From contig RCMX01000007.1 in assembly GCA_004348925.1 (NCBI GenBank), positions 1 to 64,000 of the forward strand: a stretch of 64,000 nt of DNA. The letters are read 5' to 3'. The notes under the pieces were generated by a model. That model did no database searches, had not been told where the DNA came from, and was given only the letters and a program-made list of their open reading frames with translations. This DNA is from Actinomycetota bacterium. GTDB taxonomy: Bacteria; Actinomycetota; Coriobacteriia; Anaerosomatales; Anaerosomataceae. Position numbers and translations under genes: made by a program. Numbering within the stretch: the first letter of the stretch is position 1; each line of letters starts with the position of its first letter. Positions 1 to 20,410 of the stretch are shown here, in pieces.

Positions 1-21
1 CGTGGTGGCGGCAGCAGTGTA

Positions 22-109
22 GGATTGACATAGGAGCAACAGCTGACGCGCAGGAGGTAGACTGACACGGAAGGCATCGGCGCGCAGCTGATGCGCAAAT
101 GCGTTAGCC
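22..109 (+). repeat. attC-like integron site 1
   Basis: This is an imperfect palindrome of about 88 bp. The right arm (79-108) is identical over 30 bp to the right arm of the site at 573-661 and ends in the core GTTAGCC (103-109). The left arm has the matching inner box CAGCTGACGCGC at 40-51. The left outer core is degenerate (around 22-30, GGATTGACA). Size, core sequence and the gene starting about 30 bp downstream fit an integron attC site. The upstream cassette is cut off by the window edge. Confidence 0.68.
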
Positions 110-140
110 AGAACGCGGGGGTTCTGGAGGAGGAGGGGGC

Positions 141-578
141 ATGGGTTCGATGCGGGGACGTCTTTCTGCGATGCTTCGACTCTTTGGCGCGCTGGGGCTT
201 GTCGTTGCACTCGCCTTGTTGCCCTACGGTCTTGCGGCGGTCGGCCTCACCTTCAGATCACCGCTCTTCTACGGGATTGTCGCGCACGGGTACGCGCCGG
301 CGATCGTGGCGATCTTGGGCGCGCTGCTCTTCGTTTCGGGGCGACGCGGCGGTGTCGTAGGCGCTGGTCTCTGCGCGGCAATAGTGATTGGCTACCTAGT
401 GGCGAGCTGGCGGGCCCAACTCGCGGTAGCTCAGAGCGGTGATCCCCAGGTGCTTTTCACGCTCGTCCTTGCGATGGCGGTCTGCACGGCGGCCGTCTCG
501 GTGTACGCGTTGGTATTTGCTCCCAAAGTCCGGGTGTCCATCGAAGGGGAGCCTGAGACCGTCCGGGCATCTGGCTAA
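141..578 (+). CDS. small hydrophobic membrane protein, integron cassette ORF
   Basis: This 145-residue protein of unknown function has about four predicted membrane segments (roughly residues 13-35, 45-65, 72-90 and 106-126). The ATG at 141 follows a purine-rich ribosome-binding site (GGAGGAGGAGG). The gene lies between two attC-like repeats. It begins about 30 bp after the first core, and its TAA stop (576-578) is embedded in the GGCTAAC left core of the next repeat. This is the classical layout of a promoterless integron gene cassette. I do not recognise a family. Expression would depend on upstream transcription because I see no convincing promoter between the repeat and the start. Confidence 0.72.
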   Translation: MGSMRGRLSAMLRLFGALGLVVALALLPYGLAAVGLTFRSPLFYGIVAHGYAPAIVAILGALLFVSGRRGGVVGAGLCAAIVIGYLVASWRAQLAVAQSGDPQVLFTLVLAMAVCTAAVSVYALVFAPKVRVSIEGEPETVRASG

Positions 579-661
579 CAAGTGCTTTCAGCTCACGCGC
601 CAGAGTCGTAGGCTTTGCAGAGAAGGTATAGGCGCGCAGCTGATGCGCAAATGCGTTAGCG
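573..661 (+). repeat. attC-like integron site 2 (best preserved)
   Basis: The left core GGCTAAC (573-579) and right core GTTAGC (655-660) are perfect complements over six bases. Inside them, CAGCTCACGCGCC (589-601) pairs with the GGCGCGCAGCTG box of the right arm (631-642), with a small bulge. A central spacer of about 30 bp separates the arms. The length of about 88 bp is within the attC range. The exact 30-bp match of its right arm (631-660) to 79-108 shows these are copies of one site family. Recombination would be expected between G655 and T656. Confidence 0.8.
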
Positions 662-1066
662 GGACTCTCCGCTCCGCTTTGCGGCGTGCAGCCTGATCCA
701 GTCGGCGAGCGTCTCCTCGTCGAGTTCTCCGGCAGCGAGTGCCACGAAGGTCGTGACCACGTCGGTCTCGGCCGTCTTGAGGTCGAGTCCGTTCAGGCCA
801 AGGAATACCGCCATCACCACGAACGCGACTCTCTTGTTGCCGTCGTTGTAGGGGTGACTTCGGGCAAGGCCGTACGCGTGGGCGGCGGCCAGTGCGGCGA
901 GGTCCGCATCGGGTTTGCAGGAATGCAGCTGTCGTGGGCGGGCGAGCGCGGATTCGAGCAAGTTCTCGTCGCGCAGTCCTGGCATCCCGCCGTGCGTTAG
1001 CAGCATGTCGGTCTGGATCGCGTCGACGACCACGCGTGTCACCCAGCGCGGTTCACGCTGCGGCAT
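656..1066 (-). CDS. doc: Doc/Fic-fold toxin of a toxin-antitoxin pair
   Basis: This 136-residue protein matches the Doc family, whose Fic fold modifies translation targets such as EF-Tu. The Fic signature reads HPYNDGNKR (about residues 71-79), with the catalytic His and the anion-binding GNKR. The ATG at 1066 follows the antitoxin stop by five bases, so the two are co-translated. I reject a longer upstream extension in the same frame because it overlaps the antitoxin. The stop codon (656-658) lies inside the right core of attC site 2, so the operon runs backwards against the cassette direction. Toxin-antitoxin modules with their own promoter are common in sedentary integrons, where they stabilise the array. 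The exact target is not visible from sequence. Confidence 0.88.
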   Translation of the reverse strand: MPQREPRWVTRVVVDAIQTDMLLTHGGMPGLRDENLLESALARPRQLHSCKPDADLAALAAAHAYGLARSHPYNDGNKRVAFVVMAVFLGLNGLDLKTAETDVVTTFVALAAGELDEETLADWIRLHAAKRSGESR

Positions 1067-1071
1067 GCTCG

Positions 1072-1299
1072 TTACTTCGCAAGCTCTCGAAGGGCGCTGC
1101 GGTAGGTGCGCCCAACCTCGGCGGCGATCGAGAGCGCCTCTTCGGTGTCTTTGTCGTACGGGGTGAGCAGGATACCGCGCTCGGTCTCGATGGCGATCAC
1201 CGTATCGCCGGCGGCAAGCTTCAGCCTGTCGGCCATGTCTTTGGGCAGCGTGGCGGCGATGGATCCGCCGGCCTTGCGCAGCTTCACTCCCCGGGTCAT
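1072..1299 (-). CDS. AbrB/MazE-type antitoxin
   Basis: This 75-residue protein has the SpoVT/AbrB swapped-hairpin DNA-binding pattern: a basic start (TRGVKLRKAGGS), then the L-P-K-D and L-x-x-G-D-T-V elements of a beta-barrel domain, then an acidic helical tail likely to bind the toxin. The ATG at 1299 has GGAGG seven bases upstream. It is the first gene of a two-gene operon with the Doc-like toxin, as expected for an antitoxin. A palindrome overlapping the promoter (1334-1351) is a likely autoregulatory operator. Pairing an AbrB-type antitoxin with Doc, instead of Phd, is a known variant. Confidence 0.85.
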   Translation of the reverse strand: MTRGVKLRKAGGSIAATLPKDMADRLKLAAGDTVIAIETERGILLTPYDKDTEEALSIAAEVGRTYRSALRELAK

Positions 1300-1333
1300 C
1301 TCGATGCCTCCATTGTGAGGGGTCGTGGTCAGT

Positions 1334-1351
1334 GTAGCATAGATGTGCTAC
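1334..1351 (-). promoter_or_regulatory. palindromic operator/promoter of the antitoxin-toxin operon
   Basis: GTAGCA (1334-1339) and TGCTAC (1346-1351) form perfect 6-bp arms around a 6-bp centre, about 35 bases upstream of the antitoxin start. On the minus strand a TATGCT/TACACT -10-like stretch overlaps the palindrome. Binding here would block transcription, as in conditional cooperativity of toxin-antitoxin operons. The position and symmetry are seen; the regulation is inferred. Confidence 0.5.
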
Positions 1352-1592
1352 TTGGAGCCCCCTCATATCACGTTTCCATCGCAGCGATCCCGCTGACTTT
1401 GACGTTCACGCCGAGATGACGCCTGCGGAGGATCGGCTTGCCCAAAGGGTGCTTCCGTGCACACGGCGCGCCTCGTACACTAGATTCGGGTTCAAGGTGC
1501 TCGGTGGTGCGCAGGGGGTGACGCGCCGAGACGTCGGCAGACGCGAGGCATGCGTTCGCAAGCCCGTCGCTCGCTCGGGAGGGGAGTCGGCA

Positions 1593-1934
1593 GTGGGTTC
1601 GGCAGCCAATCTCAATCTGGCGCTGGCGTTTGCTCTTGAGTTGGCCATGTTGGCAGCGCTTGCCATCTTCGGGTTCCGATCCGTCGACCATCCGCTGCTT
1701 CGCTGGGCGCTCGCGATCGTGCTGCCGCTAGCTGCAGCAGTGTTGTGGGGCTACCTGCTAGCGCCGAAGGCGGCCAACAGGCTAGGGATGGTGCCCGGGA
1801 TACTCCTCTCTCTTCTGCTCTTCATGCTCGCTGCGCTTGCGCTGCACCGCGTGGGGCAGCCGACCCTGGCCTGGGTGATGGCGGGCGCGGCGATACTCCA
1901 TGCTGTGCTTGCGTTCGTCTGGCGCCAGTGGTGA
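1593..1934 (+). CDS. YrdB-like (DUF2568) small membrane protein
   Basis: This 113-residue integral membrane protein has four hydrophobic segments. It resembles the YrdB/DUF2568 family, whose function is unknown: N-terminal NLALAFALELAMLAALAIFG, then a WGYLLAPKA motif. The start is taken as the GTG at 1593 because GGGAGGGGAG lies just upstream. Extending to the ATG at 1416 would add about 59 low-quality residues. It lies between attC-like sites 2 and 3, so it could belong to the same cassette as the toxin-antitoxin pair, or to a cassette whose own attC has decayed beyond recognition. The 1352-1592 stretch before it shows nothing I can firmly assign. Confidence 0.72.
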   Translation: MGSAANLNLALAFALELAMLAALAIFGFRSVDHPLLRWALAIVLPLAAAVLWGYLLAPKAANRLGMVPGILLSLLLFMLAALALHRVGQPTLAWVMAGAAILHAVLAFVWRQW

Positions 1935-1963
1935 AACTGCCGGGTGAACCGGGTTCGACTCGC

Positions 1964-2050
1964 GATCCGGCAAGCGCCTTCAGCTGACGTGCAGGAAATC
2001 GCGGCTCAGCCGAGAAGATATCGGCTCGCAGTTGATGCGCACATGCGCAA
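1964..2050 (+). repeat. decayed attC-like integron site 3
   Basis: The left arm CAGCTGACGTGCAGGA (1983-1998) and the right arm (2021-2049) are clearly homologous to sites 1 and 2. The right arm differs at a few positions: C to T in CGCAGTTGATGCGC and A to C in CACATGCG. The terminal core reads GCGCAAG instead of GCGTTAG, so the recombination core is lost. It is interpreted as a degenerate attC marking an old, immobilised cassette boundary. Confidence 0.55.
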
Positions 2051-2100
2051 GAAGGACCCGTGCCCGCCGGACAGGGCACCGTCTCGGAAGGCAGTGACCG

Positions 2101-6937: not shown

Positions 6938-7324
6938 TCAGTCGGCGTAGTCGTCCTGTGCTTGGCCCGCCGGAACGAACAGCGGCCTGACCTCGACCCC
7001 GCCATCGACTGCAGCAGGATGGAGGCTCGCAACGCGGGTCGCGACGTCGATGTCCGGTGCCGCCAGTACGAAGAATGCCGAGGCGACCAGGTCCGACTCC
7101 AGCACCGTCCCGGCTCGCACCGTATCGCCCTGCACGGTCATCGCGGTCGTGCTCGGGTCGAAGGCAAATCCCCGTTGCTTAGGGAAGTAGCTGCCGCCAA
7201 GGACTTTGCCGCCGAGCGCCTTGGCCCGAGCGGGGAAGTCATCGAGCAGTGCCAGGTGCTCTGCAGTCATAGCCTTCGGGTCTGCGGGTGCCGGTGAGTA
7301 GACGATCATCCCGAACTGCGGCAT
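6938..7324 (-). CDS. YciI/YCII-related domain protein
   Basis: This 128-residue protein of the DGPF/YCII-like ferredoxin-fold family starts with MPQFGMIVYSPAP, has LDDFPARAKALGG in the first helix and a GGVEVRPLF ending strand. Members are small cytoplasmic proteins of unclear enzymatic role, often encoded near ECF sigma factors; none is present here. A ribosome-binding site (AAAGGAG on the minus strand) lies just upstream of the ATG at 7324. It may be co-transcribed with the gene at 7370-7834, about 45 bases upstream. Confidence 0.8.
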   Translation of the reverse strand: MPQFGMIVYSPAPADPKAMTAEHLALLDDFPARAKALGGKVLGGSYFPKQRGFAFDPSTTAMTVQGDTVRAGTVLESDLVASAFFVLAAPDIDVATRVASLHPAAVDGGVEVRPLFVPAGQAQDDYAD

Positions 7325-7369
7325 GGGGTCTCCTTTCCTGTCCGAGGCGAACTCGACTTCGTTCGCACG

Positions 7370-7834
7370 CTAGTACTCGCCCTTGATCACGAAGAAAGAT
7401 CCTCGAATCGTCCCCGCCAGTTTGGACTTCATCCTGGCGAACTTGAACTTGCCCTCAAGTTCCGCGGGGACGTCCATCCCATCTGAGAGCTTGATGCCGA
7501 CGGCTCGCTTCTTAGGGTCGTCGATCGTGTACATGACGTTGATCGATAGACCGCTCTCGTAGAAGACGTACGCGATGTCGATGTTCTCGACCCGAAAGCG
7601 CGATGTCTCTAGCGACCTGGATTCGATTTCGATGCCGCGCTCTTCCCGAAGGATTCGGTTGACGTACTCCATCGTCTCCTGACTCTCGGTCGCGGGAGTG
7701 ACGGCGAACTCATGCTTGTACTTGTTCATGAAGTACCGCGCTTCGTTCGCGCGAAGGCCGGCGAGCGCATCGGCAACCGGCGACGTCTCAAGGCCGACGG
7801 TGGACACGTTCACGAAATCGACGATTGCGGGCAT
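7370..7834 (-). CDS. hypothetical protein, alpha/beta
   Basis: This 154-residue soluble protein has no family I recognise. It has a central charged helix with NEARYFMNKYKHEFAV, a basic segment (residues about 110-140, KKRAVGIKLSDG and KFARMKSKLAG) and no signal peptide or membrane segment. The start at 7834 is supported by AAGGAGGG upstream. It has the same orientation as the YciI-like gene and could share a transcript with it. Upstream on the same strand is a fragment of a VOC-type gene, so the area has been rearranged. Confidence 0.6.
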   Translation of the reverse strand: MPAIVDFVNVSTVGLETSPVADALAGLRANEARYFMNKYKHEFAVTPATESQETMEYVNRILREERGIEIESRSLETSRFRVENIDIAYVFYESGLSINVMYTIDDPKKRAVGIKLSDGMDVPAELEGKFKFARMKSKLAGTIRGSFFVIKGEY

Positions 7835-7964
7835 GTCAGACCCTCCTTGTGTCGCTCTCTTCTTTGCCGAGAAACCCGCAAACGTATCGCCTGCTCGGTA
7901 TCTCGCGACCAGGTCGGTCGGCCGCTGTGACGACCCGGTGCGGGTGATGTGACTTGTCGTCGGC

Positions 7965-8042: not shown

Positions 8043-8128
8043 CCCGACCGGGTCACTCGCGCGGCGCGTGGCGGCTGCGTGAGCGCACGTCATATCGGGC
8101 AAATATCGTCATGAAGCGAGGAGGATCA

Positions 8129-8506
8129 GTGGCGGACAAGACCGTTGCCGAGAAGACACACGTAAGGCCCGGGACCGCCATCGCGGTCGTGAACGAGGTG
8201 CCCGGCGTGGTCGGCGCACTCGGCCTTCCGGCTGGCGTGACGTTCGTAGAAGCGGCCGAGGCGCAACTCGTCTTCCTGTTCGTGCACACACGTGCGGAAC
8301 TCGATGACATGATGCCCGCTGCCGTCGCCGATCTTCCGTCCGGCGCGGCCCTCTGGGTCTTCTACCGGAAGGGGTCCAGGGCAGCTGGTCTTGATATGAG
8401 CCGCGACGACATATGGGCCGCTGCAGAGGCTCTCGGCATGCGTCCTCTCGGACTCGTCAGCATCGACAGCACATGGTCGGCGTTCAGGCTGCGCTGCGCG
8501 CACTGA
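8129..8506 (+). CDS. DUF3052-like protein
   Basis: This 125-residue protein has the DUF3052-like layout: VRPGTAIAVVNEVP near the start, a central AEAQLVFLFVHTRAELDD, then a GAALWVFYRKGS strand and a tail VSIDSTWSAFRLR. The family is small, cytoplasmic and uncharacterised; the ending with W-S-A-F/L-R is diagnostic. The GTG at 8129 is favoured over the in-frame ATG at 8111 because GAGGAGG lies between them, five bases before the GTG. It is a single gene with no visible partner. Confidence 0.8.
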   Translation: MADKTVAEKTHVRPGTAIAVVNEVPGVVGALGLPAGVTFVEAAEAQLVFLFVHTRAELDDMMPAAVADLPSGAALWVFYRKGSRAAGLDMSRDDIWAAAEALGMRPLGLVSIDSTWSAFRLRCAH

Positions 8507-8543
8507 GGCCCGTGCCGGACTCGTGAGAGGCGGGGAACGAAGC

Positions 8544-9272
8544 ATGGCGAGGTTCACCACAGATGAGGCGCTGGCGTTCATCAACGCGATGAGTCTCACG
8601 CTCAAAGGCAAGGTCGGCTTCAGGTGGATGCTCGAGAAGCTGAGCGCCCTCAGCGAATTCATCGAATCGCTCGCCGCCGAGAACGACAGTCTGCGCGATG
8701 CCGCAGCTGAGGAGGCCGAGGCGACCTCCGGGATCGTCATCGGACCGGCCTCGGAGATGGACCTGGTTGACGTGCTGCAGGTCGAGGCGTTGGCGTTCGC
8801 CGACGACCCCGCTGTCGAGTCGCTCGTGCGCGACTTGCTGCGCGATCCGAGTGCCGCCCCGGTGGTGTCATTGCTTGCACGCGAAGCAGGACGTCCCATC
8901 GGCCACGTCATGTTCACCGCCGCGCACATCGACGGATCCGAACGTGATGTATGCGCATCGATTCTGGCGCCTCTCGCAGTCGTGCCCGACCGGCAGCGAC
9001 GCGGGGTTGGCGGGAGGCTGGTCGAGCGAGGGCTTGGCGTGCTGGAAGCGTCGGGTGTGGAGCTGGTGTTCGTGCTCGGCCATCCTGCGTACTATCCGCA
9101 GTTCGGATTCGAGCCCGCCGGTGCGCGGGGACTTGCGGCGCCGTTCCCGATTCCCGCAGACCACGCGGACGCCTGGATGGTGCGAGCGCTGCGACCGGGC
9201 GTTCTCGGCGCCGTCCGCGGCACCGTCGTGTGCGCCGAAGCGATGAACAGGGCCGAGTACTGGCGTGAGTGA
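8544..9272 (+). CDS. GNAT N-acetyltransferase with N-terminal helical extension (YhbS-like)
   Basis: This 242-residue protein has two parts. Residues 1-55 are helical and charged. Residues about 65-200 form a GNAT domain like E. coli YhbS, with the acetyl-CoA loop QRRGVGGRLVERGL and the hallmark HPAYYPQFGFEPA. It would transfer an acetyl group from acetyl-CoA to an unknown amine. The C-terminal 40 residues resemble the GVLGAVRGTVVCAEAM tail of this subfamily. The ATG at 8544 is used; the 7-residue extension to a GTG at 8523 is less likely. Confidence 0.85.
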   Translation: MARFTTDEALAFINAMSLTLKGKVGFRWMLEKLSALSEFIESLAAENDSLRDAAAEEAEATSGIVIGPASEMDLVDVLQVEALAFADDPAVESLVRDLLRDPSAAPVVSLLAREAGRPIGHVMFTAAHIDGSERDVCASILAPLAVVPDRQRRGVGGRLVERGLGVLEASGVELVFVLGHPAYYPQFGFEPAGARGLAAPFPIPADHADAWMVRALRPGVLGAVRGTVVCAEAMNRAEYWRE

Positions 9273-9372
9273 TCTCATCCTTTTCGGTCCGACGATGGAT
9301 GCCGGGAAGTGGGAATACTCTCATGCCCGGCCGGTGGCCGTGCCCGGTGTGAATCGGAGAGGGGTGCGCGAG

Positions 9373-9741
9373 ATGACCACGACAGCTGCGATCGAACGAC
9401 CCGACGCTGTTCCGAAGACCGGCACGTTCTCATCGCTTCCGACGACTATGGCAGGTCGCGTCTCCATGTGGATCGCGGTCGTGTTCGTCGTGCTGTTCAC
9501 GATCAACTCGTTCGTGTTCATGCCGATGTCGGGCACGACGAACAACGCGCTCGACGTCTTCAGAGAGCGGATCTTGCCCTACTACGGAGTCGGAATGCTG
9601 CTCTGCGGCGCTGTGGCCGGCTCGGTGGCTCTATTCGCGATCACCAGGAATCGTGAGAGATCCTTCGTGCTGTGGCTGGCACTGCTCCCGCTCGCATTCA
9701 CGATCTTCCTGCTCCTCGGCGAATTCCTTGTTCCTCACTAG
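9373..9741 (+). CDS. three-helix membrane protein, unknown function
   Basis: This 122-residue protein has a 25-residue polar N terminus and three predicted membrane helices (about residues 30-50, 70-92 and 98-118). No family is recognised. The ATG at 9373 is chosen because GGAGAGGGG lies about nine bases upstream; a frame start at 9265 would overlap the preceding gene and add a non-conserved-looking segment. It is close behind the GNAT gene but separated by 100 bases. Confidence 0.6.
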   Translation: MTTTAAIERPDAVPKTGTFSSLPTTMAGRVSMWIAVVFVVLFTINSFVFMPMSGTTNNALDVFRERILPYYGVGMLLCGAVAGSVALFAITRNRERSFVLWLALLPLAFTIFLLLGEFLVPH

Positions 9742-9760
9742 CAGACGGGTCGGTGCGTGC

Positions 9761-10132
9761 ATGGCGAACAGACCGACGGCAACGTCCATTGACGGGTACA
9801 TAGCGGCGTTCCCTGCGGATACCCGAAGAGCACTGCTTGAGGTCAAGTCGCTCATCAGAGACGTCGCGCCCGATGCGACCGAGACGATCAGCTACGCGAT
9901 CCCCACGTTCGACATGAACGGTCGGCACCTGGTGCATTTCGCCGGGTACGAGCGGCACATCGGCCTGTATCCGACACCCACCGGCATGGAGGAGTTCAGG
10001 GCCGATCTTGAGCCGTACAAGCAGGGCAAGGGATCGGTGCAGTTCCCGCTCGGGAAGCCTCTGCCGCTGGATCTGATCCGCCGCATCGTCGAGTTCCGCG
10101 TACAGGAGGTCGCGCGCAAAGGCGCCCGGTAG
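9761..10132 (+). CDS. DUF1801 (YdhG-like) protein
   Basis: This 123-residue protein has the DUF1801 signature: SIDGYIAAFPADTRRALLEV at the start, DATETISYAIPTF with the conserved Y-x-I-P-x-F, and a closing F-P-L-G-K-P-L-P segment. Homologues include YdhG, a putative iron chaperone of the frataxin-like fold. The molecular role here is unproved. The ATG at 9761 lies 19 bases after the preceding stop; the ribosome-binding site is weak. Confidence 0.88.
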   Translation: MANRPTATSIDGYIAAFPADTRRALLEVKSLIRDVAPDATETISYAIPTFDMNGRHLVHFAGYERHIGLYPTPTGMEEFRADLEPYKQGKGSVQFPLGKPLPLDLIRRIVEFRVQEVARKGAR

Positions 10133-10281
10133 CCTAGCGGCTTCCAGTTAGAGCCTCAGCGCACTCGCACGGCGTGGTCATAGCCGCCGTGACCGTTCAT
10201 CGCGGACTCCTCTTGCGTGAGTGCACATGCAGAGCGCGCCGTGGTATGTTCGCAGTGGGGGCGGGAGGAGAGCTAGCCGTT

Positions 10282-12399
10282 ATGCGAGAGCGAAGCGCGC
10301 GTTGGTGGCGTTCTGCACCGCTGTGGGTCAAAGCCGTTCTGGTCGCGGTCACGTACTTTGCCGCGGCGGAGCTTGGCAATGCGCTCTCGGTGCAACAGGA
10401 GTTCTCGACGTTCTGGCCCCCGGCGGGCGTGCTGTTCGTGCTGCTCGTCTTCTCTGACGTTCGCGAATGGCCGGTGCTGTTGCTTGCTGCGGCGGTCGCG
10501 AACGTCGCGTCTGATTCCCTGCACGGGCGTGCGATCGTCCTGAGTGCAGGCTTCGCGGTCGCCAACTGCGCGGAAGCATCGCTCGGGGCGTTCCTGATCC
10601 GTCGGTTCATGCGGGATGCGCTCGCACTCGACTCGCGGCGCAAGGTTGCAGGGTTCACGGCGTTGGCCGCTTTGATCGCGCCTGCGATCGGCGCCACGCT
10701 CGGTATGGCATCTCTGGCGCTCGCCGCCGGGGACGCGCCGACGTGGCGACCATGGGTGACGTGGTGGTCCGGCGACGCGCTCGGCGTCCTTGCGGTCGGC
10801 GCATTCGGCCTGGCGATCGCCGAGGCCGAGGGTCAGAATTGGGCCCCGCTCCCTCACACGCCGTTTCGCGCCGTTCGCATACTCGTGCTGCTTGTCGCCG
10901 CCGGTTCGGTCGGCTGGTGGCTGGTCTCATCGTTCGGCCCGCTCGCGGGATGGAAGGCCGTCATATTCCTGCCGGTGCTCCTGGTCGCGTCTGGCTTCGG
11001 GCAGATCGGTGCCGCCTCGGCCGGGATCACGATCACCTTGTGCATGACAGCAGGTCTGGTCGATCGCTGGAGCAAAGTCGCGACGATCGGCAGCGGCATC
11101 TCGCTGGAGGTGATCGGGCTGCAGGCGTTCCTCGCCGTGCTGATCTTCGCTGCCCTCTACGTGACGGCATCTATCGACGAAGCGAAGCACGCCGAAGAGT
11201 CCGCGCACGTGGCTGCCGAGAAGTTCCGCACCCTTCTGGAGACGCTGCCGATCGGCGTTTCCATCTCGGACGACACGGGGGCGATCATCGAGACGAGCGC
11301 ACAGGCGGCTCGCATCCTTGGAGTGCCGGCAGCCGTGCATCGCCAACGCGAGATCCGTGGGACCGAGTGGAAGATCCTGCGGCCGGACGGTTCCGAGAAG
11401 CCGCCAGAGGAGTGGGCGTCGGTTCGCGCTCTTGCCGCGCAGGCGCGCACGCGTGCGCAGGAGGGCATCGTCCGTCCCGATGAAACCGTCGTGTGGCTCG
11501 ATGTGACCGCGGAACCCATTCCGCTCCCGGGTTACGGAGTTGCCATCACCTACCAGGATGTCACCGAGGAGGTACTGGCGCGAGAGCAGTTACTGGTGAG
11601 CGAAGAGCGCCTCAAGGCTGCACACGATCATCTGGAGCAGGAGGTGGCCAATCGCACGGCGGAGTTGCGGTCGACGAACGAGGAGCTACTCGAGGCGTCG
11701 AGGGCGAAGAGCCGGTTCCTGGCGAACATGAGCCATGAGTTGCGCACGCCGCTCAATTCCATCATCGGCTTCTCCGATCTCATGTCGAAGGGGCTGGCCG
11801 GGCCGCTCACAGACGAGCAGCACAAGCAGCTCGGGATGATCAACGCCTCCGGCAAGCACCTGCTCGGACTCGTGAACGATGTGCTCGATCTCGAGCGCAT
11901 CGAGACGGGTCACGAGGTCGTGTCGGCGACATGGTTCGACATCTGCGAACTTGCCGAGGAGATCAGTGAGACCCTTGAGCCGCAAGCGCTGGAGAAGGGC
12001 ATCGCCCTGAGCACTGCGATGCAGACATCGCCGATGCTTGTCTGCTCCGACCGGGGAAAAGTGAAGCAGATAGTGATGAACCTGGCGTCGAACGCTCTGA
12101 AGTTCACCGACGAAGGCGCGATCACGCTTGCATGCGTAGCGCACGAAGAAGGAGTGCTGCTCACCGTCACAGATACGGGCATCGGGATCGCTGCCGAGGA
12201 GATCGCTCTGATCATGGACGACTTCCATCAGGTCGATCGTACCGACGGTCTCAAGCCGAGCGGGACGGGACTCGGTCTGTCGATCTCACGGCGCCTTGTT
12301 GAGATGCTTGGGGGTCGGATGGAGGTAGAAAGCCGATTTGGCACCGGTTCGACGTTTCGGGTGTGGCTGCCCAACCTTCCCGAGACCCCGACGGCGTAG
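10282..12399 (+). CDS. MASE1-PAS sensor histidine kinase
   Basis: This membrane sensor kinase has about 705 residues. Residues about 12-300 form a MASE1-type sensory region with eight or more membrane helices (for example AELGNALSVQQEFSTFWPPA). Residues about 310-430 are a PAS domain, followed by a coiled coil. The HisKA dimerisation domain carries phospho-acceptor His485 (NMSHELRTPLN). The ATPase domain has an N box near Asn600-604, DTGIGIA and GTGLGLSIS. The ATG at 10282 is preferred, with GGAGGAG 12 bases upstream; GTG or ATG codons further upstream lack such a signal. No response regulator is adjacent. Its kinase core closely resembles that of the kinase at 19151-20410. Confidence 0.9.
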   Translation: MRERSARWWRSAPLWVKAVLVAVTYFAAAELGNALSVQQEFSTFWPPAGVLFVLLVFSDVREWPVLLLAAAVANVASDSLHGRAIVLSAGFAVANCAEASLGAFLIRRFMRDALALDSRRKVAGFTALAALIAPAIGATLGMASLALAAGDAPTWRPWVTWWSGDALGVLAVGAFGLAIAEAEGQNWAPLPHTPFRAVRILVLLVAAGSVGWWLVSSFGPLAGWKAVIFLPVLLVASGFGQIGAASAGITITLCMTAGLVDRWSKVATIGSGISLEVIGLQAFLAVLIFAALYVTASIDEAKHAEESAHVAAEKFRTLLETLPIGVSISDDTGAIIETSAQAARILGVPAAVHRQREIRGTEWKILRPDGSEKPPEEWASVRALAAQARTRAQEGIVRPDETVVWLDVTAEPIPLPGYGVAITYQDVTEEVLAREQLLVSEERLKAAHDHLEQEVANRTAELRSTNEELLEASRAKSRFLANMSHELRTPLNSIIGFSDLMSKGLAGPLTDEQHKQLGMINASGKHLLGLVNDVLDLERIETGHEVVSATWFDICELAEEISETLEPQALEKGIALSTAMQTSPMLVCSDRGKVKQIVMNLASNALKFTDEGAITLACVAHEEGVLLTVTDTGIGIAAEEIALIMDDFHQVDRTDGLKPSGTGLGLSISRRLVEMLGGRMEVESRFGTGSTFRVWLPNLPETPTA

Positions 12400-19165: not shown

Positions 19166-20410
19166 TTCGTCTTCTTCGCGGCGTTGTGAAGCCACCAGCG
19201 GCAGCCGAAGCGCGAACGTGCTGCCCGCGGGAGACGACTCTTCAAGCGTCAGCGATCCGCCGAGCAGCGTTGCCAGATGGCGACTGATCGGCAGGCCCAA
19301 CCCGGTGCCCGGGGGCTTTATCGTTCCATCGAGCGTTCCCTGCCGGAACGGTTGCCAGATGTCGATGTGCTCGTGCGGCTGGATTCCCGGCCCTGTGTCG
19401 ATCACGCGAAAGACGAGCTCAGCGCCCTCATGGTCGAGTCGAAGCCCTATCGAGCCACTCGTGGTGAACTTCACTGCGTTGCCAGCAAGGTTGAGCATGA
19501 TCTGCAGCAGGCGCTGCCGGTCGCTCTCGATCTCGAGTGCGGCTTCGTCGCACGCCACGTGCAGTTCGAGGTCGCGTTCCTGCGCCTGCGGCCGCATGAG
19601 TTCGCACACGTTGCTGAGGACGTCGCATGCGTTGAAGGTCTCCATGGTGAGCTCGGCCTGGCCGGACTCGACCTTCGCCAGATCGAGGACCTGGTTGATC
19701 AGCGCAAGCAGATGCTTGCCGGCGTTGTTGATCATCACAAGCTGTCGATGCTGCTCCTCGTTCACATCGCCCGCGAGGCCGCGAAGCAAGACGTCGCTGA
19801 AACCGATGACCGAGTTGAGCGGCGTTCGTAACTCATGGCTCATGCTCGCGAGGAACTGGTCCTTCGCGCGTGTTGCCTGCACCAGCTCCTCGTTCGCGCG
19901 CCGCAGCTCCTCGGTGCGGCTGGCGACCTCTGCTTCGAGTCGACGCCGGTGGGCGCGTTGCGATTGCTCGGCACGGCGCCTGTCGGTGATGTCGCGCGCC
20001 ACAACGACCGCGAAGTCGCCGTCCCGCATAGCGAGCGTGTGCGCGTCGACCTCGTAGGGCGCACCCGGGCTGCCGAGCTCCACCTCCAGCCGGATCCCGC
20101 CATCTGCCGAGAGTCCCGCAAGCAGGTCGTGCGCGAAGGCGGGGGCGGACGCCTCGGTGAGGGGCCTCCCGACCAGGTCGCGTCCGAGCAGGTCGTGTGC
20201 GGTGCGGTTCGCGTCGAGGACGGTGCCCTCGGGCATCTTCAACAGCATGATCGCGTCGTTGCTGCCGTCGAGAAGCACCCGGAAGCGTTCCAGCTCACCG
20301 AGGCGCTGCTGCAGCTCCGGGTAGTAGCTCTTTCGGGCCGAATGCGCACCGAGCCCGATCACCCCGGCGCGAAGCGCATCCCAGTCCCGGTCCTCAGTCG
20401 AGTGCGTCAT
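19151..20410 (-). CDS. soluble PAS sensor histidine kinase (ErcS-like)
   Basis: This 419-residue kinase has no membrane segments. A PAS domain covers about residues 45-150, a coiled coil follows to about 180, and the HisKA domain has phospho-acceptor His192 (SMSHELRTPLN). A complete ATPase domain follows with DTGPGI and GTGLGLPIS. The ATG at 20410 lies inside the 3' end of the upstream dehydrogenase gene (17-base overlap), so the two are translationally coupled. In pseudomonads, ErcA-like Fe-dehydrogenases work with the kinase ErcS' in controlling alcohol oxidation genes. The same partnership is inferred here. The longer open frame to 20644 is a shadow of the dehydrogenase gene. Confidence 0.9.
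   Translation of the reverse strand: MTHSTEDRDWDALRAGVIGLGAHSARKSYYPELQQRLGELERFRVLLDGSNDAIMLLKMPEGTVLDANRTAHDLLGRDLVGRPLTEASAPAFAHDLLAGLSADGGIRLEVELGSPGAPYEVDAHTLAMRDGDFAVVVARDITDRRRAEQSQRAHRRRLEAEVASRTEELRRANEELVQATRAKDQFLASMSHELRTPLNSVIGFSDVLLRGLAGDVNEEQHRQLVMINNAGKHLLALINQVLDLAKVESGQAELTMETFNACDVLSNVCELMRPQAQERDLELHVACDEAALEIESDRQRLLQIMLNLAGNAVKFTTSGSIGLRLDHEGAELVFRVIDTGPGIQPHEHIDIWQPFRQGTLDGTIKPPGTGLGLPISRHLATLLGGSLTLEESSPAGSTFALRLPLVASQRREEDERGAS

Follow-up and report, generated by a model that had tools for sequence, protein, structure and literature searches.

The left end of the window (the whole 64,000-nucleotide stretch that was analysed) contains three attC sites, one complete gene cassette and a terminal cassette. 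These features are listed in Table 1. Window position 1 is also base 1 of contig C6 in a genome of 2.25 Mb and seven contigs, among which a 16S rRNA gene is missing. The complete cassette carries a single gene. The terminal cassette carries a toxin-antitoxin (TA) gene pair and a membrane protein gene.

Table 1. Features at the left end of the window, with positions, strand and the evidence for each.
Feature	Positions	Strand	Evidence
attC of the cassette truncated by the contig start	23..109	+	model R1, 43.0 bits, E 1.2e-9; R' intact (GTTAGCC)
Complete gene cassette, G^TT to G^TT	104..655	+	own R'' / left R' match
Cassette gene, hydrophobic 145-aa protein	141..578	+	ORF; Pfam match sub-threshold only
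attC, intact R and L boxes	573..661	+	model R1, 65.5 bits, E 4.2e-16
Terminal cassette ending in decayed attC	656..2047	+	bounded by R' 655-661 and attC 1965-2053
Fic/Doc-family toxin-like gene, antisense to the array	656..1066	-	Pfam PF02661, 52.7 bits
MazE/AbrB-type antitoxin-like gene	1072..1299	-	Pfam PF04014, 39.8 bits
DUF2568 membrane protein gene	1593..1934	+	Pfam PF10823, 73 bits
Decayed distal attC, last recognisable	1965..2053	+	model R1, 42.7 bits, E 1.5e-9

attC sites and gene cassettes

The initial annotation had described two attC-like sites with identical 30-bp right arms (79-108 and 631-660), and these arms match letter for letter. The layout of gene and cores described there was also found: the ORF begins 32 bp past the core, and its TAA lies within the R'' core GGCTAAC (573-579). 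A decayed third copy (72% identity) was located at repeat-search coordinates 1971-2057. The pattern GCAGNTGATGCGCANATGCG has three matches in the window against 0.15 expected, and three matches were reached in 0 of 100 shuffles.

A loose regex-plus-fold scan for attC sites produced numerous false positives in GC-rich DNA and was given up in favour of a scan restricted to CTAAC/GTTAG, and then of a covariance model (R1). The model was built from 24 attC candidates, all from relatives, with the genome under study excluded, and its structure was written by hand. In the R1 alignment, 97% of the cells pair, a percentage that is biased upward since the candidates were partly selected by folding; two-sided changes, which are less affected, occur in 10 of the 16 stem pairs. 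Shifting one arm by 1-3 columns abolishes the pairing signal. On the R'' side, two columns remain without pairing, in the manner of the extrahelical bases of known attC sites.

The covariance model search, which had been recommended at the outset, matched all three window sites, and these are attC sites. R and L boxes, bases unpaired on one strand and a GTTRRRY core were found; one of the three sites is intact and two are degenerate. At 23-109, the R'' core is degenerate (ATTGACA), so that the R boxes there no longer fully pair. At 1965-2053, both cores carry mutations (ATCCGGC and GCAAGAA). Judged by their cores, the two degenerate sites may be inactive. Folding had been recommended as well, with a mixed outcome: the bottom strand of 573-661 folds with the R and L boxes paired, but both sites of the initial annotation have weak DNA-fold z-scores (-1.4 and -0.7). 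Better-preserved attC sites elsewhere in the genome have z-scores of -4.5 and -6.3. Folding of the window sites is therefore insufficient as proof, which is supplied by the covariance model. The Rfam search gave no relevant match, and with R1 (filters off) no further attC site was found from 1965-2053 up to window position 20000. Genome-wide, R1 detected attC sites only in clusters, namely at the C1 end, on C7, at the C6 start, at the C2 and C3 ends, and at C1:537158-541487.

After insertion as a circle, the R'' of a cassette is the complement of the left R' of the same cassette and not of the R' of the right-hand neighbour. In the cassette at 104-655, the R' GTTAGCC (103-109) and the R'' GGCTAAC (573-579) are exact complements, and the next R', GTTAGCG, does not fit this R''. 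The same rule was examined in 61 cassettes with canonical cores from 12 arrays. In 59 of them, the R'' agrees with the left R' of the same cassette, and in 14 with that of the right-hand neighbour. Agreement of the first kind marks the insertion of cassettes as circles, which is characteristic of integrons. Ordinary intergenic palindromes (REP-like elements or terminators) might also produce repeats, with the cassette layout a coincidence, and the two window sites indeed fold only weakly better than shuffled sequences. Such an origin is nevertheless hardly conceivable, given the two-sided covariation of the stems, the R boxes that match cassette by cassette, the IntI in the same genome and the attC clusters beside intI across the order.

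The cassette genes of the window, C7 and C2/C3 were named by database matches. On C7, a DNA methylase gene is accompanied by one for a type IIG restriction-methylase (PADLOC, E 4e-234). This contig also carries genes for a helicase that has DpdF-like and DUF559 regions and for an ankyrin protein, and a duplicated Phd/YefM-ParE-type TA cassette. The latter is present at L020:1-1540 in two identical tandem copies spaced 744 bp apart, after which comes a run of N; additional copies were probably collapsed there in the assembly. The C2/C3 array encodes DndB-like, ThsB-like TIR and PDC-M50-type proteins, a type IV Mrr-type restriction enzyme, and a PIN/RHH pair. None of the cassette genes examined matched a resistance family; they are TA genes, restriction or defence genes, or genes with no assigned function. 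The Fic-MazE pair is also found as a cassette in another genus (G007, L137:3504-5330), where, like its counterpart in the window, it is antisense to the array. The decay of cores at the distal end was likewise observed in another genome (L137).

The integrase and the array of the window

The annotation had advised a search for intI and for more copies of the repeat. An intact IntI and many copies were found elsewhere in the same genome. The single true IntI is encoded at C1:814082-815056, 1.2 kb short of the C1 end. It scores 475.8 bits against TIGR02249 (cut-off 265); the other tyrosine recombinases of the genome score below 72. The closest solved structure is the V. cholerae integron integrase 2A3V, which aligns end to end, including the integron-specific extra segment. 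The catalytic residues R-K-H-R-H-Y are present here and in three close relatives, and the dN/dS is about 0.14, with values of 0.09-0.15 among them. In the three loci checked, the region upstream of intI showed no LexA box.

The attI site was located by a search between intI and the first attC for a 7-mer complementary to the R'' of that attC. The predicted insertion point here is L019:9793 (C1:815792), on the intI side of the array and with a conserved motif upstream. Insertion points were located in 24 loci, and most of them are preceded by a motif like CAGaCTG.AgAATCATTGTTAG. A second, related motif occurs further upstream in many loci, and seems similar to the direct repeats known from attI of class 1.

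There are no exact overlaps between contig ends, and C1, C7 and C6 are not physically joined. The order of the array is therefore unreadable from the assembly, and relatives were used instead. These breaks within the array count against the interpretation given below, as do the two degenerate attC sites of the window and the missing LexA box. Six genomes of the family have the C3 flank directly after the C2 flank, with no array. An array stands between these flanks in the genome under study, G028 and G043. Since the flanks are adjacent in relatives, C2-C3 represents a second array without intI. With C2 paired with C3, C6 remains as the exit of the C1 array. C7 could be placed in neither array. 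In G028, which belongs to the same genus, intI (C5:1510-2451) is followed by attC sites. Homologues of window 6940-7891 and 8095-10458 are located further along this contig on the same strand. Given this synteny of intI with the window flank, the distal end of the intI array most likely lies in the window. DNA comparison detected none of the window's own cassettes in the G028 arrays, which indicates cassette turnover between species. The comparison with relatives, another step proposed in the annotation, thus gave conserved flanks, different cassettes and an empty site at the second array. None of the three results that would have refuted the annotation was obtained.

The window sites might instead be a CALIN, an attC cluster without its own integrase and a relic stranded from any platform. 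Such clusters are present in the genome (C2-C3 and C1:537158-541487), and the array in the window is short and shows partial decay. However, C6 is left as the exit of the C1 array by the C2-C3 pairing, and G028 holds intI and both window homologues on one contig and one strand. A CALIN is thus quite improbable.

We are highly confident that window 1-2053 belongs to a sedentary chromosomal integron and forms its distal end. The host is an uncultured member of the Coriobacteriia (phylum Actinomycetota) that does not live in the gut. IntI is found in most genomes of the order, and the flanks are syntenic with same-genus genomes. A mobile class 1 integron does not agree with the chromosomal flanks, nor with the examined cassettes, which are of the TA, restriction/defence or unassigned kinds. 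The annotation had spoken of mobile integron cassettes. The integron was borne out; only its cassettes are of the mobile kind, and the element itself is sedentary and chromosomal. By the established integron mechanism, IntI would bind the folded bottom strand of attC and exchange strands at G^TTRRRY. Cassettes would be excised as circles and inserted at attI on C1. Older cassettes would be pushed toward the window end, where the attC sites would decay.

Further observations were made on the other attC groups. The second array, without intI, covers L182:16215-19398 and L183:11764-18073 (C2 and C3 ends), and this site is empty in six relatives. A TetR/zinc-oxidoreductase block is shared at 86% identity by the G028 intI array (L134:6635-8870) and the intI-less array here (L183:11889-14123). 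By sequence comparison, it appears to be a large segment moved between arrays. The block had suggested that C1 joins C3; this idea was dropped because C2 and C3 are adjacent in relatives. The third group, L184:7159-11488 (C1:537158-541487), is decayed. The gene flanking it (L184:15974-18001) adjoins intI in four other genomes (L142, L155, L156, L159), so this group may mark an ancestral integron site that has lost intI.

Toxin-antitoxin genes between intI and attI

The attI site is located 127-236 bp past intI in 14 of the 24 loci, leaving no room for a gene. In the other 10 loci it is located 707-1665 bp past intI, and TA genes occupy the gap in all 10. BrnTA was found in six loci (the genome under study, G028, G069, G085, G109 and G129), with an apparently frameshifted BrnT in G085. 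MazE-Fic was found in G016 and G049, YefM-YoeB in G043, and Phd with addiction-module antidote genes in G083. TA genes were also seen in loci whose attI is out of view: YefM-YoeB and then MazE-Fic in G071; BrnA, with BrnT below threshold, in G057; and an RHH-PIN pair and BrnTA in L083. G071, G016 and G049 thus carry, between intI and the array, the MazE-Fic pair that is also found in the window's terminal cassette. TA genes in this position were recorded at L019:9057-9793 (C1:815056-815792), L134, L135, L140, L142, L143, L145, L160, L161, L166 and L171.

As attI lies beyond them, these TA genes did not enter as cassettes at attI. Within each of the genera g1 and g5, different species have different TA families, which suggests that the slot was refilled repeatedly. 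We tentatively propose, with somewhat less than even confidence, that the platform of the host order has a replaceable TA slot between intI and attI, refilled repeatedly, which would addict the cell to the platform and not to the cassettes. The addiction role is proposed from gene content and position. The TA genes in the last window cassette and the BrnTA genes on C1 would together make the loss of either end costly. The platform TA genes may also be a source of transcription into the first cassettes. The TA genes of chromosomal integrons have been described as cassettes (PMC11023631); no report of TA genes within the integron platform was found in the literature search.

Distribution and relation to known integrons

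IntI scores above the cut-off in 46 of the 69 genomes of the host order, probably the Anaerosomatales (OPB41). Among the high-quality genomes it is matched in 41 of 51, and among the genera in 31 of 40. In a class-wide sample of 398 genomes, all 47 IntI hits fall within the host order, and the rest of the class in this sample has none. A phylum-wide sample added 13 IntI genomes outside the class. The annotation had called integrons rarely described in Actinobacteria, and published surveys agree; in this lineage, however, they are not rare. Surveys of complete genomes reported no complete integron in Actinobacteria (PMC2426708, PMC9024848), and the 2008 survey left open whether biology or sampling was the cause (PMC2426708). 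A 2021 review named Actinobacteriota among the integron phyla without detail (PMC8618304), and integrons go unmentioned in the description of the Anaerosomatales (PMC9686372). The literature searched gave no report of integrons spread through an order of the Coriobacteriia, although this search was not exhaustive. The frequency in the high-quality genomes, together with the further Actinomycetota classes with IntI, suggests that the actinobacterial gap is largely due to sampling.

The smallest clade with all 41 IntIs of the order (support 0.92) comprises 60 sequences, some of them from records titled Planctomycetes, Chlorobi, Omnitrophota and spirochaetes. IntIs with 65-73% identity are found in records titled Omnitrophota, Chlorobaculum, Desulfuromonas, Planctomycetes and others (L052-L057, L061, L062, L064). 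These titles reflect either transfers between phyla or mis-binned contigs. Contamination might likewise be considered for the present genome, with the array or the IntI contig mis-binned from another phylum: the genome is a draft bin, and some records titled as other phyla carry an IntI of about 70% identity. This is barely credible, as the contigs are 816 kb (C1) and 243 kb (C6), the contamination estimate is 0.17%, the flank next to intI matches a same-genus genome at 93% identity, and IntI is present in 41 of the 51 high-quality genomes of the order, including one that is a single contig (G003).

The attC sites are located downstream of the intI 3' end, on the same strand, in 26 of the 27 order loci with attC hits. 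The exception, L158, has a single weak attC hit elsewhere; L160 additionally has one attC site on the other strand. This reversed layout, with intI reading toward the array, is known from Treponema (PMC3607928). The Treponema-type integrons share the reversed intI, and spirochaete IntIs fall inside the smallest clade with the host-order IntIs. In contrast, the integrons reported here occur in a different phylum and in most genera of an order; their attI has a conserved motif, defined here, and TA genes stand between intI and attI in part of the loci.

The Vibrio superintegrons (IntIA, VCR attC) are related through 2A3V. They also resemble the present integrons in the attC bases unpaired on one strand, and in the many cassettes with TA genes or of unknown function. 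In Vibrio, intI diverges from the array, and the attC sites within an array are near-uniform. Here, intI is reversed, the attC sites are more variable within the array, and TA genes, which are cassettes in Vibrio, are also found in the platform. The mobile class 1 integrons, including those of Corynebacterium and other Gram-positives, have the logic of IntI, attI and attC in common. They are borne on plasmids or transposons, arrived recently and carry resistance cassettes, whereas the integrons here are chromosomal and order-wide, with no examined cassette matching a resistance family.

In summary, the type of element is known, and the host lineage and the platform layout with its putative TA slot are new. 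The cassettes with restriction, other defence and TA genes point to an unexplored reservoir. The platform TA slot would provide a testable answer to how an integron is retained over the long term in a small genome.
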